Source of the DNA: Parietichytrium sp. I65-24A
Lineage: Eukaryota > Sar > Bigyra > Thraustochytrida > Thraustochytriidae
DNA: 64,000 bases
Assembly: GCA_012862575.1 (NCBI GenBank)
Contig: BLSF01000036.1
Coordinates: 62,001 to 126,000, forward strand
Direction: 5' to 3'
Position 1 is the first letter of the stretch. Each line of letters opens with the position of its first letter. The position numbers were made by a program, and so were the translations under genes. A model generated the notes under the pieces. It ran no database searches and was not told the DNA's origin. It saw only the letters and a list, made by a program, of their open reading frames with translations. Positions 10,925 through 45,407 of the stretch are shown here, piece after piece.

Positions 10925-13712
10925 TTTGACGGTTTTGTTGGCGGTTTAGTGTGGCTGCGACTCGAGTTTGCGGTCTGTGCTGTGGGCTGCCAACCTGCAA
11001 CTGACTGCGCTCCTGCGAGTGTCTTGGCTTATTCCCTTTGGGGTCTGTCTGGGTCTCCAACTCTCCTTGCTTGCGATTGCCGGCCTCTCTCCCTTCCCTC
11101 CCCTTGCTACTACAATCCTCTCTCTCTCTGTGTGTCTCTCTCTCTCTCTCTCTCTCTTCTCTCTGTGTGTGTCTATAGACGTCTCCTCGGTCACACACCC
11201 TGCTTGCTAGTGCAATCGACCTCTCTTTTTCCTTTGTTTGCTTTGTTTACTTTTTTTTTTGCTAGACGAGGGTACGGCGCATGTGCATACGCTATGTATA
11301 ATGAGAGAAGGTGGAGGGAGAAAAAGAGAGAAAAAGAGAGATGAGGTAGAAGACGGATATAGGGAGGGAGGGAGGGAGGGAGAGGGAGAGTGGAGTGTTT
11401 TTCGCTGCCGAGATGTTCAATTGATCAAAACTTTTCTTTTGCTCATTCCTTCCTCCCTCTCTCCCTCTCTCCCTCTCTCCCGCCTTCTCCCTCTCCCTCT
11501 CTCCCTTGTAGCAGTTCAGGTGTGTGCTCGTGTCTAGCGGTGTGGTAGGCGGCGGCGGTGGGCACGGGTGAGAGTGGGTGGCCCGGCCGATAGGAAGGAA
11601 AGGAAGGCTATGAGTGGGTCGTGCGCATCCCTTTCCTTCCATGCGCCGAGACTATCTATCTATTCATGTTGATTGTTTAATGAAAAGCTGGGAAGTGATC
11701 AATCTAACTGAATCTAAGAACAGAACAAATCAATCACAGCTCACTCATCCATCTCATCCCGGCACAATGAGGACGATGAGACATGATGAGACTGATTTCA
11801 ATTTCAACTTGATGAGACACATTGTTTTTTACACGCGATAACAACGCCTGAATTCGAAAATTCATGGGCGCAAGTCCTTCCAGGCTCCCAGTTCCAAGTT
11901 TATTTTCGGTTTGATTTAATTCCTCAAAATCAATTGATGAACGACCTTTTCTCGTGCTCCGTTTTCTCTGTGTCGACCGTGGACTGCGATGACTACGCTG
12001 AGACCAGTACTAGTGCACAGCGCAGGTCTCCTGGACTAAGCCCACTTGTTCTCTCTATCTCTCTCTCTCTCTCGCTCTCCCCTCTCTTTTCGCAAGGCAA
12101 CTCTGGGCAAAGAAACAGAAAAGCAAACAAGAAAAGAGAGGAAATGTGGAGGCAATGAGAAACAAAGAGAGAGGGAGAGAGAGAGAGAGAGAGGAGCTGG
12201 TAGTGAGCGAAAGAGTGAGTGAGAGTTGGGAGTCTTGGGAGCGTGTGTGCGTGCGTGCGTAGAATGTGTGCGCAGGTGCTAGCACTCTGGTGCCTGAGAC
12301 GTAGACACTAGGGACACCTGCTGGCGCGTGTGAGGAGAGGGTGTTAGGGTGGTAGAAATCATCTAGTATTGAAGTGTATTGACCGCATGGCAGTTGGCAG
12401 TTGATGGTTCTGAGTAAAGTTCTGCCCACCCACTCGACAAGAACATCATACTACCGCTCAGAGAGGAAGGATGCAATACATAGAAAGAGGTGTTCTTTCG
12501 GTTTTTTCTTCCAAGCTGTCCTGTTATTTGTACAGTTTTAATTCACAATCGACTGTAAAAGCCTGCACGCATAGGTTTTGAAAATTACAATACACACCAT
12601 TAGCAGGCTAGCTAGCACTAGTACTCGCCGCACAAAAGTCAACCATAGGCAACCCGCTGAGTATCGAGTAGCACACCGGTGCGGTTGGCTTAGCAAGTCG
12701 TAGGCTCCTTGACTGATCGATTTAGCCAGGATCGCACTGAAAATCGCGAAACTTACAACTTGCGAAAGGAGTTGAGACTCGTTGCACATAAGTTGAAGGC
12801 ATTGTGACGGTGATCTGTGATCTATGGTCTGTGATCGTTTATGCATACAGTAGGAATGGGAATGAATGTTCGTGGTGGAAGGAGGAGAGGCAATGAATCG
12901 TTCACTGTCAATCGAATTCCACAGACTTTTGTTTCCCCTTAGCGACTGAATGAATGAAGGAATGGGTGAATGAATATCCGATGCATCATGTCATGATTAA
13001 TTTAATTTGCGGGATGAAAGGGCTGCTTGGCTGCGCTCTGCCCGAGTACTTGGTATGTAGGCCAGAACAGACAGACGGACAGACGTGGAGAGCGCGACGT
13101 GTGGAGGGGTCTCCAGAGCTGTTCCTCAAGTCGAATCAGGGCAATCTCAAACGTTGCAATTCAGGAATCAGAACCGGTGTGTCCTTGAGAATGTCCGCTG
13201 ATATCCGGTACTGAGTACTGTGAGTGCAGTGCAAATGAAAAACTAACAAGTCCAAGTGCAAGGATGAGCAAGGAGTGCAACTCGCAAGGAAAAAGCGACG
13301 ACGCAAGTTATTTGAAGCCGAGATCCCAGTCGTGAAGTCACGCTGACAACTGCGCAGAAAGGTGGACAAGAACAAGATCTGACAGACAAAAAGAGATCCG
13401 AGGAAAGTGGCAAAGCCAAAGCCCCACTTGAGAGCTATTTCGAGCGGCCAAAAAAAAAGGTCTTACAAGCAGCTGCACATCTGCGCAGGATCTGGTCGAC
13501 ACAAACCTGCATCGACTCAGTACGGACTGGGAGTATTGGCAGCCGGGCTGGACTGGTAGGGTGCCCCTGTCTTCGATGGGTGGTGCTGTTGGAGGTCTTC
13601 TGCGCGATGTGAGGTGTGCCACAGTGTGCTAGGCGTCAAAAAGCAGATGCAAGTTGATGGAGCCTAGTGCGCAAGAGTGAATGGATGGTCGGTGGAGGCT
13701 TCCATAGCTCCA

Positions 13713-32118: not shown

Positions 32119-33002
32119 CTGTGAATCCGACTTTTTGACAATTTTGAAGGACGGTCAACACGTCGTCCATTTAAGAAGAACCGTGATGATTCTTTTCTAC
32201 ATTTAATGAGATTCTAATTCACAAGAATACGTTTTCAGTGATGACACTCTATGTTCTCTCTTCGTCAAACGAGCCTTTGCGTTGCGTACGGCTGTCCAAA
32301 GTTTGTGGTAAATAGACCAGCTTTGGTACGTCATCGTCGTGTACACACGCTACCTTGCGTTGCAGCGGCCAATAAAAGCACTGCAAATCCCTGAAATGAA
32401 AGTGAGCGTATGTTGGTGCAAATGATATATATCTCTTTGTAATTTCGAAAATTTGATAGATATGATGTTGCAACACAGGTGGGGGTCGGCCGTGTTGTGG
32501 AGATGCGAGTACGTTTCAAATGCAAGTGAGTTTGCTCGTTCACCAAAATGTGAGCTCGAAACGAGTTGTGCATGCAGAGCACAGCCGCGAGTCAAACTGT
32601 AAAACCTTTTAACTCACAGGCTCGCTGCAGCACATTCGCCATCTTCCAAACACACATCCTTCCGCAACAATTATGTTGTTCAAGTTCAAACGGTATTCTC
32701 TCAGCCTCAGGATCTCAACCACAAAAAGCTACGACAAGTCCATAGGACGATTTGCAAGCCAATCCCTTTTCCAAAGGTCAACTATACGTCATCAATCCTT
32801 GCACTCAATCTACATGGAGCGGCATCATTCTTCCCAAGGCACCCGTGACCGACCACCTAAAGTCAATAGACTATTATTCACCTGCTCGCAACGCGAAGAA
32901 AAGTGAAACTAATTCCGGCAAAAGCGCCACCAATTATGCTCCCAGCGACAGCATTCAAGCAATTGCCAGGAGCACGCTGCGACGCCATGCCTCTTCTTCC
33001 AA
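32119..33002. other. Convergent 3' spacer
   Basis: This 884 bp spacer is the longest convergent one here. Open frames at 32673-33006 overlap each other in different frames and lack family features. The sequence is AT-rich with TATA-like words near 32430-32465. No RNA gene was recognised. Confidence 0.5.
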
Positions 33003-33929
33003 TTAAGCCTGGGCGACCGACGGCTCTGGCTGGCCAGATCCGTAACGGTCGCTATGCGTGCTTGACGGGTATTGGTCAAGCTCGATGGGCTTGAACATCG
33101 GATTACCTCTGCGCTCCCGCAAAATAAGGCGGCCCACCGCACAGCAGGTAAACACCACGAGAACGCTAAGAATCACAATGAGGGCAATAATGCCAGCAGA
33201 GAGCTGTGTGCCACTGCTCTCGTTGTCCACGTCCTCGTAGACGCGAGCGCAACTGAAAATGTTGCCGTCATCTGAGGTGCAAAACTTTTGGTTTGCACAC
33301 GCTCGGTACATGGCGTCGCAGTAATCGCCACGAATAGGCATCTTGTACATTTCCCACTCGTTCTTGTCTTCATCAGTGATGCTGTCATACTCGTGAGGAG
33401 CATACTTGCGGAACAAGCCCGCATTCACATCGCACTCGTAGAAGCAGGCCTCTTGAACGAAGAAGCGCTCGCACTCTTGCGAGAGAGGCCCGCAACGGTC
33501 CCAATGGTACTCTGGGCCGTACGCCTCCTTGAGCACCTGCGCAGAAGCCACCGTCTCTTGCTTGCAGCATGCTTTGTTCTCCCACGGGTGGCACTCCGTA
33601 AACTTGTTGTCCTCGGTGTGCGGGGTCTCGTGGTGGAGATACTGCAAGTGGCACACTGAGGTGTCATTGTAAGCTGCGTCGTGCAGGCCTTTCTCCATCC
33701 TCTTGGCAGTCACCGCGTCATTCGGGTTTTCATCCGTGAACCACCACATCGTGTATGCTAGCTCGTAGTTCGGGTCGTCGGTCGGCGTGTACACGAAGGC
33801 GTCGCCCCACATGGTGTTGCAGAGGTCTTCGCCGTCGGTGTAGATCTCCGCGAAGGTGTGGCACTCTGGCTCTTCCGTGGCCATGGCTGCGCTGGCGCAG
33901 AGGGCTCCAATGATCGTCGCGCGCATCAT
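33003..33929 (-). CDS. Folate-receptor-family type I membrane protein
   Basis: Predicted 308 aa single-exon protein. It begins with a signal peptide (MMRATIIGALCASAAMA) and has a Cys-rich ectodomain. The folate receptor signature is clear: CHPWENKACCKQET near residue 111, then YHWDRCGPLSQECERFF and VQEACFYECDVNAG, matching the CSPWxxxACC, FNWNHCG and CxRHFxQDxCLYECSPNLG blocks of vertebrate folate receptors and related riboflavin-binding proteins. Vertebrate receptors end in a GPI anchor; here a helix at about 243-268 (AGIIALIVILSVLVVFTCC) and a 40-residue cytoplasmic tail follow. The ligand may be folate, another pterin or flavin, or a sterol-type ligand as in other family branches; this cannot be decided. 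The ATG at 33929 was chosen because it opens a clean signal peptide; in-frame sequence upstream is strongly basic. Confidence 0.85.
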   Translation of the reverse strand: MMRATIIGALCASAAMATEEPECHTFAEIYTDGEDLCNTMWGDAFVYTPTDDPNYELAYTMWWFTDENPNDAVTAKRMEKGLHDAAYNDTSVCHLQYLHHETPHTEDNKFTECHPWENKACCKQETVASAQVLKEAYGPEYHWDRCGPLSQECERFFVQEACFYECDVNAGLFRKYAPHEYDSITDEDKNEWEMYKMPIRGDYCDAMYRACANQKFCTSDDGNIFSCARVYEDVDNESSGTQLSAGIIALIVILSVLVVFTCCAVGRLILRERRGNPMFKPIELDQYPSSTHSDRYGSGQPEPSVAQA

Positions 33930-34202
33930 CTTCGCTCGTTGCTTTGAGACTCCCGTTGCTGCTCTCCTCCTGCCTGCTCGCATTCGGGGTCTGCCCATGA
34001 CCACTACTCAGTCAGTAAAACAATCTTTCCAATCACATGAATTCATTATTGACAGGCAGTAAATGCCACTAAGATCCACAATTTCCTACTATGGTATTCT
34101 CGACTCTCACAATTCTCACGCGTCCTTCTTCTTACTAACTCCTGATCGAGTTCGTGATGTGCCCACATACTCCCTCACTCAAGAGAAAAAAAGCGTGTCT
34201 GT

Positions 34203-41035: not shown

Positions 41036-44000
41036 ATGGCCAAAGTCGAAACAGACCCGAGCCAGACGCTCCCGCCAAAGGACCAAAGCGCTTTCAGGTC
41101 GCTGGCGAAACTGCAAGAGCAAAAGCAGTACAAAAAGTGCCTCAAGACCGCAGAGAGCATCCTCAAGAGCAACCCGAACCATGGCGAGACCATCTCGTTC
41201 AAGGCGCTGACGCTCAATTCGCTGGGCAAGAAGGATGAGGCCATCCAGCTAGCAAAACTTGGTCTGATGAAGACAAAGATGAAGAGCAACGTGTCGTGGC
41301 ATGTGCTCGGTCTTATTTACAGGTCCGACAGGAACTATCCCGAGGCGATCAAGTGCTATCGCAAGGCGCTTAGCTTGCAAGACAGTCCACAGGTGCAGCG
41401 CGACCTCGGGATTCTTCAGATCCAGATCCGGGATCTCAAAGGATACTGTGAAAGCAGGAGGCAGCTTTTGATGAAGCGCTCTGAACTTCGTGGGAACTGG
41501 GTTGGGTTCTGGTACGTTTTTTTCTTTCTTTCTTGGGGGCGGGGGCTGATTTGGATTCGGTTTGTGGTTTGGCGGGAAAGGAGTGGGTTGGTAGATACGT
41601 GGTCTTATCTTTTGCACGGCTCGATCGAAGATCAATAGAAAGCTCTTTTTTAAAACCTCCCACTTTCGTTGATTCAAAGCGTAGCCAAGAGAATAGAGTC
41701 GGTATGGTCGCGACTGCATTTGCGTTGCTACCCATGCAAGTCGCATTACCCAACTGGCCAACATATCTACACCACGGTCTTGAGTCTCTGTTGTTTGCGG
41801 TCAACGAGTATTTCTAACTTTAAATCGTGTTTGTTGGTTAACAGCATCGCTCATCATGCTTGTGGGAATCAGAAGCTTGCCCTCTCTCTCTTGGACACCA
41901 TCATTACTACGATGCAACCAAACGACAGAGAGGCTTACGAGCAGAGTGAGATCTTTCTTTACAAGCTCCTGCTTATGGAGGAGATGGAAGCATACGAAGC
42001 CGCTCTGCTGTTCATGGAAGCCTATGGCGACAGAATTCTAGACAAGAATGGCTTAAAGGAGAGGAAGGGCCGCATTCTTCTCAAGCTCGGCAGATTTGAT
42101 GCTGCAAAGGAAGTTTACTTGGATTTGCACGCAACCAATGCCGAGTGCTACGAGTATCATCGGGGAATTCAGGTACGTTCTCACTCAAAACAAACTTGGT
42201 AGCTTTTTACATGTACGGGAAACACCGCGACCTACTCTGCCACGGCTACTCGATTTTCAATATCGAAGTAAGCTGCCATGTTGTCGCGAATAAAGATGTG
42301 TTAGTACTAACGCGCTCTCCGCAAGGTGCGGTTGGTGACTCTATTCCTAGCACGACATTTTTTTGATCCCGCGTTATGATATCCCCGTCATGTTTTCGGC
42401 ACTGGGTTGCATTTGACTGTTGCTAACAAATACATTTGCTTCTTGTTACGTGAGCAGGCATGTATCCTTGGAACGAATGAGGGCATTCAAGAAATGACAG
42501 GGTGCGAGCTCCCTATTGAGATGGAAGGGTAAGTTATATACGAACGCGAAACCGTCTCGTTGGCCGAGTTGTCAGTGATGAAAGCATTTTCGTTGGAGGT
42601 CGCACTATTTGTCCTGGAACCACGAGTACGTGGAAGAACCCTCTGGGAGCCTAGTAGCATCACCAAAGACCAAAGAATGCGTCCGTTGGCGCCGTCTGAG
42701 GCAAATCTTTCAACGGAATACGGTCTTCCCGCGATGTCTTTTGCAAATCTTCAAAGCGAGGCTTACAGTCGATTTTTTATGTCTCACAGTCTGAAGGAAG
42801 AGGAAAAGGCCCAAATTCTTGAGTTTTACAACAATGCGCCAGCTCGCTTGCCATTTTCTTATCGGAGAATACCCCTTGACTTTGCGGTCGGGGATGACCT
42901 TAAAAAGCGTGCCGATTCCTTTTTGCGTTATGGTCTACGCAAAGGAATCCCTTCTCTTTTCTCCACGCTCCGCCCAATTTACAAGAACGCGGTCGGGAAG
43001 AGGTCCAATAACTACTTCGACAAGGATGGCCATCACACGATCCCTCCATCTGTAGTTGAGGACGCCAAGGCTCGCGTTCAGGTTTTTGGGGACATCATGC
43101 AGTCATACATCGCTGAGCTCCGGAAGAGTGGGTTTCTTCCTGGTGAGAGCGGCGAGAAGGAGGCTCCCACGGTGCTTTTGTGGTGCCTCTTCTTTATGGC
43201 GCAGCATGAAGATATGGTCGGCAATCTGGTACGTTAAATATTCTTGCTTCTATAAATCAGCAGTGGTGGGTCAAGTGTGCGCTTTCTGCTTTCCCTTGAA
43301 GATTAGCATTTATTTGCAGAAACTCGAATACCGACTTTTTCTGTGAGGAAAAATTATCGTGTCTGAGGATAGAACTTGCCGAAGGATGGCATTGAACAGG
43401 GGCTTGCACGATTCGTCTGTCCGCTTGATGAGATAACTATGCAAACATCACAGACCTGTTCTGAATGACAGTGATGCGAACTTGCAAATACAATCTGATG
43501 GATCGATGCAGGTATACATCAAATCAAGCCCCGTCTCTTTAAAGCTGTCCATCGTGACTTCCCATCACTGATCCTTTGGGCTGGTTGTAACAATTCTAAC
43601 TTTGTTCTGTCGAAAATGTGTGATCACGCCTTCAGGATTCCGCTTTGAGCTTGATCAATGAAGCAATCGACCATACACCCACGCTTGTGGACTTGTACCA
43701 TGTAAGTTCACCTTTTTTGGCCCGTGTACGTGGTTGCGCATGTGTTCGAAAGGCTCTCCGTCTCGCTTGGACTTGATGTTTATTTCAAAATTCTTATTCT
43801 ACACCTTTGGAGTGGGGATTCCGCCGAGTTTCTCCCATGAAATCATCTTTGAACTGATCCAATGAGATACCAAAATACGAGACACGCAGCCAACTGCCTC
43901 GCTCGAGTTCAAATCTTCAAATTCGTGTGCGGGGTTCTATTTTCTGTGCTGCAAGAACAACAGTCGTACAGTGCACAACTACACGGGTCTGTGTTTCCTT

Positions 44001-45407
44001 TGTTTCAAACTCGTGCTAATGTCTGTACACACTTAATTTGTATTTTTCTCACAGGTGAAAGGAAGGATTCTCAAGCACGCCGGGGACCTGCTGAATGCTG
44101 CAGATGCTTTGGAGAAGGGAAGGACTTTGGATCTTGCTGACAAGTGGATTAACAGCAAGTCTGCGAAGTTCCAACTCCGTGCAGGACTCATCGAGAAGGG
44201 AGAAAGCGTTGTCTCCCTGTTTACAAAGCATGAAGGTGACAGCCGTGGCTACTTGATGGAAATGCAGTGCATGTGGTTTGAGATCGAGGCAGGCAAGGCA
44301 TTCTACGATGCTGGAAACTTGGGCACGGCTCTCAAATTTTTCACGAGCGTTCAGAAGCACTTCGACGACTTTGTTGATGACCAGTTGGACTTCCACAGTT
44401 ATTGTCTCCGCAAGATGACTCTCTGTTCTTATGTTGGTCTCTTGCGCATGGAGAAGAGCATGCTTAATCACAAGTTCTTTGCTCAAGCTGCACACCACGC
44501 CATTACTTGCTATCTTCACATTAATGACAATATTGCAGAGTTCAAGACCGCGGGTGAAGAGGAAGGCGAGCCTGACTACTCCAAGATGTCCGCCGCTGAG
44601 AAGAAAATGGCCAAGCTGAAGGCCCGCAAAGCAGAGCAGAAGCGCAAGAAGGAGGCCTCCGAGAAGGAAGATTCAAAGAAAGGGTCGGGATCAGGACAGG
44701 CCAAAAAGCGCGGTGGCAGTGACGATGATCCGGACGGCGAGAAGCTTTTAGAGTCCACTGTTGCGGATCCTCTCAAGGCTGCACGAGAGCTGATGGAAAA
44801 GGTCAACCGTTATGCGCCATTGAACTTGCAGACTCATTTGGACACTTTTGAGGTTCAAATGCGCCGAGGTAAATATCTTCAGGCTATCCGTGCGCTGTAC
44901 AGGGGAGCTCGGCTTTTCCGTGGCTCTGAGGGACTCGAGCACCCTGAAATTTTCTCCAGGTTGGTTCCGTTCCTAAAGTTTGTTAGCGATGGCAAGGTTT
45001 CGCATACCGCTTGGACCGTGGGCGGCAAGCAGGAGATGGTGATTTCCTCGGCAGCCAGAGAGGTGATCAACAAGGTCGCTGAAGATTTGGCTGTGAAGGG
45101 CTCTCCAGTGGAACTTGCCAAAAAGTATTTCGAGAAGCACTCTAGCGACGCTGATCTCGAATACCGCATGGCCGCTTGCAAAGCTGTTATCCTCGTGGAT
45201 CCTGCAAGCAAGGATAGTTACATGAAGTCTCTGATGGACGTTCCTTCTGACGCTCGGTATGAGAAGCTCTCCAAGGTGAAAACTTTCATGAAGTCTTTCG
45301 GTTGCTCTGAGGCTCAGTTGAAAGAATACGAGTCCAAGTTGCAAGCCAAGTTTCCTCTTGCTGGACGTGCTGTAGAACCAAGCCCGAAGATGGAAACTGA
45401 GGAATAA
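41036..45407 (+). CDS. NAA15: N-alpha-acetyltransferase 15, NatA auxiliary subunit (six exons)
   Basis: Six exons: 41036-41511, 41845-42172, 42458-42528, 42790-43228, 43636-43701 and 44055-45407, giving 910 aa (Arabidopsis NAA15 is about 897). NAA15 is the TPR scaffold that anchors catalytic NAA10 and the ribosome in the NatA co-translational acetylase. Recognisable blocks follow the family order: TPR start LPPKDQSAFRSLAKLQEQKQYKK, YRIPLDF-type (SYRRIPLDF), TVLLWCLFFMAQHED, HTPTLVDLYHVKGRILKHAGD (across introns 4-5), INSKSAKFQLRAGL, EMQCMWFEIEAG, DFHSYCLRKMTL, a Lys-rich linker and a C-terminal helical region. Donors are GTACGT or GTAAGT. The exon 4 acceptor (TCTCACAG, 42790) is the least certain; other in-phase AGs lie upstream. 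All five introns (333, 285, 261, 407, 353 nt) are long for this window and carry snoRNA-like structures. Confidence 0.95.
41618..41763 (+). ncRNA. Candidate H/ACA snoRNA in NAA15 intron 1 (snR46-like)
   Basis: 5' hairpin: lower stem GGCT 41618-41621 with AGCC 41683-41686; pocket strands 41622-41630 and 41674-41682 (9 nt each); upper stem ATCAA/TTGAT and GAAAG/CTTTC. Box H is AGAGAA at 41688-41693, 14 nt below the upper stem, as the family requires. 3' hairpin: GCGACTGCAT/ATGC-a-AGTCGC (41710-41744), 16 nt before ACA at 41761-41763. The 5' pocket (ATCGAAG left, TCAAA right) complements LSU rRNA UUUGA-UN-CUUCGAU in the peptidyl-transferase region. Counting along the remembered yeast 25S sequence, the selected U is psi2865, the site of yeast snR46. 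The right-hand lower stem of hairpin 2 is ambiguous. Confidence 0.7.
42226..42360 (+). ncRNA. Candidate H/ACA snoRNA in NAA15 intron 2
   Basis: Two hairpins. Hairpin 1: lower stem CGCGAC (42226-42231) with GTCGCG (42283-42288) and an upper stem around GCTACTCGAT/ATCGAAGTAAGC (42245-42273). The hinge reads ATAAAG (42290-42295), one base off the ANANNA box H and 14 nt below the upper stem. Hairpin 2: GTGTTAG (42298-42304) with CTAGCAC (42347-42353), an inner CCGCA/TGCGG stem, and ACA at 42355-42357 one base after the stem. I could not match either pocket to an rRNA site from memory, and the upper stem of hairpin 2 is irregular. Confidence 0.5.
42569..42704 (+). ncRNA. Candidate box C/D snoRNA in NAA15 intron 3
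   Basis: Box C GTGATGA (42575-42581) is perfect. Box D CTGA lies at 42696-42699. A 5 bp terminal stem TTGTC (42569-42573) pairs with GGCAA (42700-42704, including one G-U pair). At 136 nt it is long for the class. No guide was matched to rRNA by eye. If real, it requires exon 4 of NAA15 to start after 42704, which fits the best acceptor at 42790. Confidence 0.42.
43419..43503 (+). ncRNA. Box C/D snoRNA in NAA15 intron 4 (snR56/U25-like)
   Basis: Box C TTGATGA (43425-43431, one mismatch to RTGATGA), box D' CTGA (43461-43464), box C' GTGATGC (43471-43477) and box D CTGA (43495-43498) occur in the right order. A short terminal stem GTCC/GGAT (43419-43422/43500-43503) closes it. Immediately upstream of D' the 15 nt CATCACAGACCTGTT (43446-43460) are exactly complementary to the universally conserved 18S segment AACAGGTCTGTGATG. 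The fifth base before D' (C43456) pairs with the first G of AGGTC, the nucleotide methylated as yeast G1428 (snR56) and human G1490 (U25), site numbers from memory. It is expected to guide 2'-O-methylation there after release from the intron. Confidence 0.82.
43767..43862 (+). ncRNA. Candidate box C/D snoRNA in NAA15 intron 5
   Basis: A perfect 5 bp terminal stem TTGGA (43767-43771) / TCCAA (43858-43862) directly brackets a box C-like TTGATGT (43773-43779, two mismatches to consensus) and box D CTGA (43854-43857). Inside, CTTATTCTACAC (43793-43804) is complementary for 12 nt to LSU rRNA GTGTAGAATAAG (yeast 25S sequence from memory). The following CTTT could be a degenerate D' box. A second possible guide next to box D has only about 8 nt of 18S complementarity. 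The 96 nt length is normal for the class. Confidence 0.55.

Follow-up and report, generated by a model that had tools for sequence, protein, structure and literature searches.

Published tables list the 18S rRNA methylation sites Gm1428 for the guide snR56, Gm1490 for U25 and Gm1431 for AtsnoR19 (PMC8817022), the yeast site being printed as Gm1427 in a further report, in which U25/snR56/snoR19 stands among the targets of the ancestral C/D snoRNAs of LECA (PMC3511168); counterparts of the site are described in Entamoeba and T. brucei (PMC3542256). Yeast snR56 is coded M, and U25 and PFS10 of Plasmodium are coded I, in PMC2656528. In vertebrates, UHG, which is described as lacking coding potential, hosts U22 and U25-U31 (PMC7277114), and this agrees with the first-pass annotation of the DNA studied here, in which the known vertebrate host of U25 was given as non-coding. 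It has also been argued that snoRNAs did not reside in introns ancestrally and that they change places between genes of broad expression (PMC3511168).

Here we describe an element in intron 4 of NAA15 from Parietichytrium sp. I65-24A, found in a window of 64,000 nucleotides (the whole stretch of DNA that was analysed). From its sequence, we read it with a probability of roughly 0.9 as an intron-encoded, apparently single-copy gene for a box C/D guide RNA of the U25/snR56/snoR19 type, which would guide methylation of 18S rRNA. As listed in Table 1, the forward strand carries, between 43425 and 43498, box C (UUGAUGA), box D' (CUGA), box C' (GUGAUGC) and box D (CUGA) in this order, and the interval 43419-43503 contains the whole series including the guide, as had been claimed for the four boxes on first inspection. 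The boxes typical of the C/D class, whose RNAs measure about 60-100 nt, are all present, with C near the predicted 5' end, D near the predicted 3' end and the D' and C' boxes internal, and the distance from box C to box D is 63 nt. Box C has one departure from RUGAUGA (U for R), and box C' departs from its consensus at the last position. The interval is not covered by any frame that runs from stop to stop over at least 80 aa; one antisense frame is open through its 28 codons, which we take as chance.

Table 1. Features of the NAA15-intron element, its host intron and the U14 gene of the same genome (window positions unless a locus is named).
Feature	Position	Strand	Remark
NAA15 intron 4, 407 nt, GTACGT...CTTCAG	43229..43635	+	exons join in frame
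Predicted C/D snoRNA, U25/snR56 type	43421..43500	+	mature ends guessed; RF01188 alignment
Box C, UUGAUGA	43425..43431	+	core UGAUGA 43426-43431
D' guide, 15 nt, letters CATCACAGACCTGTT	43446..43460	+	complement of 18S AACAGGUCUGUGAUG
Box D', CUGA	43461..43464	+	abuts guide 3' end
Box C', GUGAUGC	43471..43477	+	core GUGAUG 43471-43476
Second spacer preceding box D	43478..43494	+	without rRNA target match in the sequences compared
Box D, CUGA	43495..43498	+	sequence
Span with possible external stem, arms ~43405-43414 and 43500-43510	43405..43510	+	duplex calculation
U14 (SNORD14, RF00016), first intron of a gene of the Cpn60 family	L027 1501-1612	-	45.6 bits

Many C/D snoRNAs lack a terminal stem joining their ends or have an external stem in its place. 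In the NAA15 intron, an external stem of 10 bp (duplex -12.4 kcal/mol), which might aid processing, was the strongest of the 13 C..D pairs tested in the window; pairs drawn at random from the window with this geometry were as strong in 2049 of 20000 cases, and flank shuffles in 432 of 5000. Because this background test is not significant, the stem was dropped as support and is left out of the case.

When compared with the guides described elsewhere, the element resembles snR56 (RF01188, clan CL00049; S. cerevisiae 18S Gm1428) in its D' guide, its target register, its box order, its similar length and its end-to-end alignment to the model, but it has a longer spacer between box C and the guide and a shorter second half, and it scores 29.5 bits against a gathering cut-off of 54 bits, which is an annotation rule and not a biological feature. 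With U25/SNORD25 (RF00054; human Gm1490) it shares the target and the intronic location, whereas the hosts differ, the vertebrate host being the non-coding UHG and NAA15 being protein-coding (PMC7277114). PFS10 of Plasmodium (18S Gm1674, equivalent to yeast Gm1428) is alike in its predicted target and in its location within an intron of a protein-coding gene, but its host belongs to the RPL5 family (with the intron location in P. falciparum), and in some Plasmodium species it is placed downstream of the last exon (PMC2656528). The Neurospora snoRNAs CD19 and CD41 are likewise intronic and are listed beside snR56/U25, and their D' guides for 18S Gm1423 measure 13 and 12 nt; they differ in that two isoforms are present, that CD41 has a second target by way of box D, and that the guide in the NAA15 intron is 15 nt long (PMC2780460). 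In Dictyostelium, CD1 (Gm1506) guides the equivalent position, but is listed as also guiding a U61-type site (PMC8817022).

The first-pass annotation had proposed that the 15 nt just before D' are complementary to 18S rRNA, and this was borne out on the S. cerevisiae 18S (1800 nt, as expected) as well as on the eukaryotic SSU rRNA consensus of Rfam (RF01960), since guide 43446-43460 is an exact 15-nt complement of 18S AACAGGTCTGTGATG, a strongly conserved segment, and the consensus at the target reads AaCAGgUCUGUGAUG. C43456, the fifth nucleotide from D', faces the target G, which is G1428 on the S. cerevisiae 18S. The further claim that the five-nucleotide rule selects yeast G1428 and human G1490 holds for the register on the yeast sequence, and Gm1428 and Gm1490 are the positions that the published tables list.

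The 15-mer occurs once in the 42.5-Mb assembly, as the reverse strand of the NAA15-intron element. A search of the same 42.5 Mb for the organism's own 18S target, using a 24-nt context with up to three mismatches, gave no match, and the only parts of the nuclear 18S gene that a pattern search of the assembly recovered were 3' ends (loci L003 and L004); the SSU at L005 is bacterial-type and organelle-like. At L003 (1-1670), which lies at a contig end, the 18S 3' end is joined to unrelated sequence that is retrotransposon-polyprotein-like by eye, and at L004 (1349-1700) it is joined to unrelated sequence with N near the junction; these pieces are either assembly breaks or inserted rDNA. A short 28S-like stretch at about 1480-1530 of L028 (minus strand) agrees with a 24-letter 28S string at 23 positions and extends perhaps over ~40 nt by eye; in the rest of L028, no LSU family of Rfam matched up to E 0.5.

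With partial rDNA present elsewhere in the assembly (L003, L004 and the 28S-like stretch of L028), the guide might itself be an antisense rRNA fragment or an inserted piece of rDNA. The complementarity ends near the guide edges, however, with AAA upstream where 18S needs GGG and CUGA downstream where yeast 18S needs AUU (the Rfam SSU consensus, with a weakly conserved g downstream, would allow two more pairs), and no rRNA family reaches its gathering cut-off in the window; such an origin is extremely improbable. With respect to a second guide, 43477-43494 is complementary to yeast 18S over 7 nt at most, and complementary matches to L003, L004 and L028 were also at most 7 nt. An 8-nt same-sense match of the second spacer in L003 falls outside the 18S part of that locus.

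A bare 15-mer that complements one or another rRNA position is, by simple calculation, no rarity in DNA of 64 kb, and the element could in principle be a chance arrangement of short intron motifs. A scan of the window on both strands for CTGA directly preceded by an 18S complement gave two places of at least 11 nt. The first is the NAA15-intron element, with 15 nt, preceded by box C and followed by a further CTGA, and the other has 11 nt and is without boxes. When the whole window was dinucleotide-shuffled 300 times and compared with the S. cerevisiae 18S, the longest complement abutting CTGA was 14 nt (2 of 300) and none reached 15 nt; when box C and a second CTGA were required as well, 298 of the 300 shuffles had no complement of at least 10 nt and the remaining two reached 10. 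The pattern of box C, an 11-nt guide and D' matched once in the window and in none of 100 shuffles. In the 42.5-Mb assembly, ACAGACCTGTNCTGA was found exactly once, at the NAA15-intron element, and with up to one mismatch at 15 places, compared with 13 for a reversed control pattern. The same pattern of box C, guide and D' also occurs at four places in a collection of prokaryote contigs, all in bacterial MAG records and two of them (L023 and L024) apparently near-identical to each other, which we read as chance or coding sequence; in viral contigs, there were no matches for the guide, the 18S segment or the C-guide-D' pattern, and no confirmed NAA15 relative. These four places and the weak Rfam E-values speak for chance, but the guide length was not reached in any of the 300 shuffles with or without the boxes, and the target is a known conserved methylation position in exact register, so that a chance arrangement is very unlikely. 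The case for a guide RNA gene rests on guide, register and boxes jointly and not on Rfam scores.

At gathering cut-offs, Rfam gave no match in the window. In a search of 43234-43640, RF01188 (snR56) aligned with E 0.029 over positions 1-84 of its 84-position model; the next match in this stretch was snoU61 at another place (E 0.089), and DdR1 (RF01559) aligned to the same interval and guide with 17.9 bits (E 0.8). Of nine weak Rfam matches in the intron, five in its first half (snoU61, snoR77Y, SNORD38, snR78 and Afu_300) were rejected; the three of them with printed alignments show box-like letters without a matching guide, as judged by eye. In a scan of the whole window with 4227 families, snR56 had E 4.5 and the highest bit score (29.5) among the listed C/D families, followed by snoR125 with 25.5, and lower E-values were obtained elsewhere in the window for snoR125 (0.1), SNORD26 (1.4), sR52 (1.6) and sR2 (2.0). 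Over the 42.5-Mb assembly, in which 62 of 4031 first-look candidates were scored, the NAA15-intron element was the first of 11 places reported for RF01188 (23.8 bits, E 0.0015, model 6-58), and the second place had E 0.06. Since 8 of 14 prokaryote control genomes, searched up to E 10, also gave sub-threshold places for RF01188, only its top rank and margin carry weight. RF00054 (SNORD25), with 66 of 1817 candidates scored, did not list the element at E up to 1, the sole place listed at that limit being elsewhere, without the guide (24.8 bits, E 0.13). The Rfam search with SNORD25 and snR56, which the first-pass annotation had put forward as a check, thus stood in part: snR56 aligns end to end and ranks first in the assembly, but the score is below gathering and SNORD25 does not list the element.

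Elsewhere in the window, a GA/CT-rich inverted repeat at 11320-11510, which folds to -89.5 kcal/mol, draws most of the window's 52 weak Rfam matches, largely those of miRNA families; it is probably low-complexity sequence and not a miRNA gene.

U14 of the same genome served as a control. Its gene (Table 1) was found with E 3.7e-7, below its own gathering score of 64, and aligns over long stretches of the family consensus including UCGCAGUU and CUUCCUUGGAUGUCUGA; of 14 prokaryote controls searched up to E 1, 6 have sub-threshold places for RF00016. The U14 gene has the orientation of its host and lies in a first intron of 319 nt, with the exons reading LADAVQVTLGPKGRNVVIEQS across the joint and the second exon matching Cpn60_TCP1; by our own reading, the host gene is HSP60. 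The box C of this U14 is UUGAUGA, and the distance from the end of its box D to the intron end is 125 nt (137 nt in the NAA15 intron). The element thus shares with a well-supported snoRNA, U14, each of three traits: a score below the cut-off, a U in box C and a location in a protein-gene intron. The cut-off missed by the NAA15-intron element says little, because U14 also misses its own, with the same box C and in a protein-gene intron, which suggests that Rfam cut-offs are too strict for this genome. A higher rate of false negatives in protist and fungal species is described for an Rfam-based method (PMC12309372), and U14 copies are described in introns of hsc70, also a chaperone gene, in human, mouse and rat (PMC7277114).

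The same comparison bears on whether the element is a decayed or silent snoRNA pseudogene, with the functional gene for this site elsewhere. Such a reading could draw on the departure of box C at R, on the external stem that is not significant, and on the occurrence of duplicates, as with the two Neurospora isoforms CD19 and CD41 (PMC2780460). All boxes and the 15-nt guide are present, however, and the box C is that of the genome's U14; a second exact ACAGACCTGTNCTGA was not found in the assembly, the next RF01188 place is that with E 0.06 (62 of 4031 scored), and the SNORD25 place is without the guide (66 of 1817 scored). We therefore consider a pseudogene unlikely and a functional guide RNA gene the preferred reading.

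The element lies inside intron 4 on the sense strand of NAA15, with 197 nt from the 5' splice site to the box C core and 137 nt from the end of box D to the end of the intron. The ORFs 42533-43237 and 44037-45407 match PF12569 (NatA_aux_su) with E 7.7e-22 and 6.5e-92, respectively, and the downstream ORF, the only one compared, matches NAA15/NAT1 chains of PDB. Across 43229-43635, the joint is in frame, with ...AQHEDMVGNL before the intron and DSALSLINEAIDHTPTLVDLYH after it; the same joint, AQHEDMVGNL/DSALSLINEAID, runs on into VKGRILKHAGD. Exons 1-3 of NAA15 join in frame, and four AG candidates keep the frame at the start of exon 4; the intron count makes 43229-43635 intron 4. The location within NAA15 intron 4 given in the first-pass annotation was confirmed in this way, by PF12569 ORFs on both sides and by the in-frame exon joint.

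In the literature searched for NAA15 or NARG1 together with snoRNAs, no report of a snoRNA host gene was found, as judged by listings and the starts of abstracts, and a search for thraustochytrid snoRNAs or oomycete box C/D snoRNAs likewise found none. Only as far as this literature reaches, NAA15 as a snoRNA host is a new case. An 18S guide inside the gene for a ribosome-bound N-terminal acetyltransferase subunit could be thought to couple supply, one promoter setting both ribosome production and co-translational acetylation and the placement being conserved in the lineage; we regard this as quite unlikely.

A further element in the window, on the minus strand at 32640-32744, resembles a TPP riboswitch (32.2 bits against a cut-off of 54.3; E 0.02 over the whole window and 1.2e-4 in a 401-base search), with the parts GCUGAGA and UUGAAC...UAAU...GCG...GGA present. 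It is located downstream of an ORF of the folate-receptor family (33003-34007, minus strand; PF03024, E 3.2e-34), at a distance of about 260 nt from the stop of this ORF. Because the algal gene ATS1 is described as bearing a riboswitch and as having similarity to the folate-receptor Pfam family PF03024 (PMC4260697), ORF and element together resemble a gene of the ATS1 type that has its riboswitch on the 3' side.

Overall, the reading of the NAA15-intron element as an intronic snoRNA of the U25/snR56 type, first proposed on inspection of the letters, is supported by computed properties of the DNA: boxes and register, strand and intron boundaries, the shuffle statistics and the rank within the assembly. 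In the formation of C/D snoRNPs, the intron is spliced, debranched and trimmed to a core bound by SNU13, NOP56, NOP58 and fibrillarin. The NAA15 pre-mRNA would carry the snoRNA transcript, and intron 4 would be released by splicing, debranched and trimmed by exonucleases to the C/D snoRNP core, to which SNU13, NOP56, NOP58 and fibrillarin would bind. The D' element would then guide fibrillarin to 2'-O-methylate the 18S G facing C43456, the equivalent of yeast G1428 and human G1490.

The type of guide is well known and ancient, and only its host gene is unusual; knowledge of the mechanism is unchanged by the NAA15-intron element. Since such guides are ancient and their hosts change between lineages, the element would be a known type of RNA in a further host, and NAA15 would be one more host for a guide whose hosts depend on the lineage, which fits the view of snoRNA mobility set out in PMC3511168. 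Together, the NAA15 element and U14 suggest that introns of ordinary protein-coding genes house C/D snoRNAs in this genome, and an rRNA methylation that is widely shared now has a candidate guide in this eukaryote.
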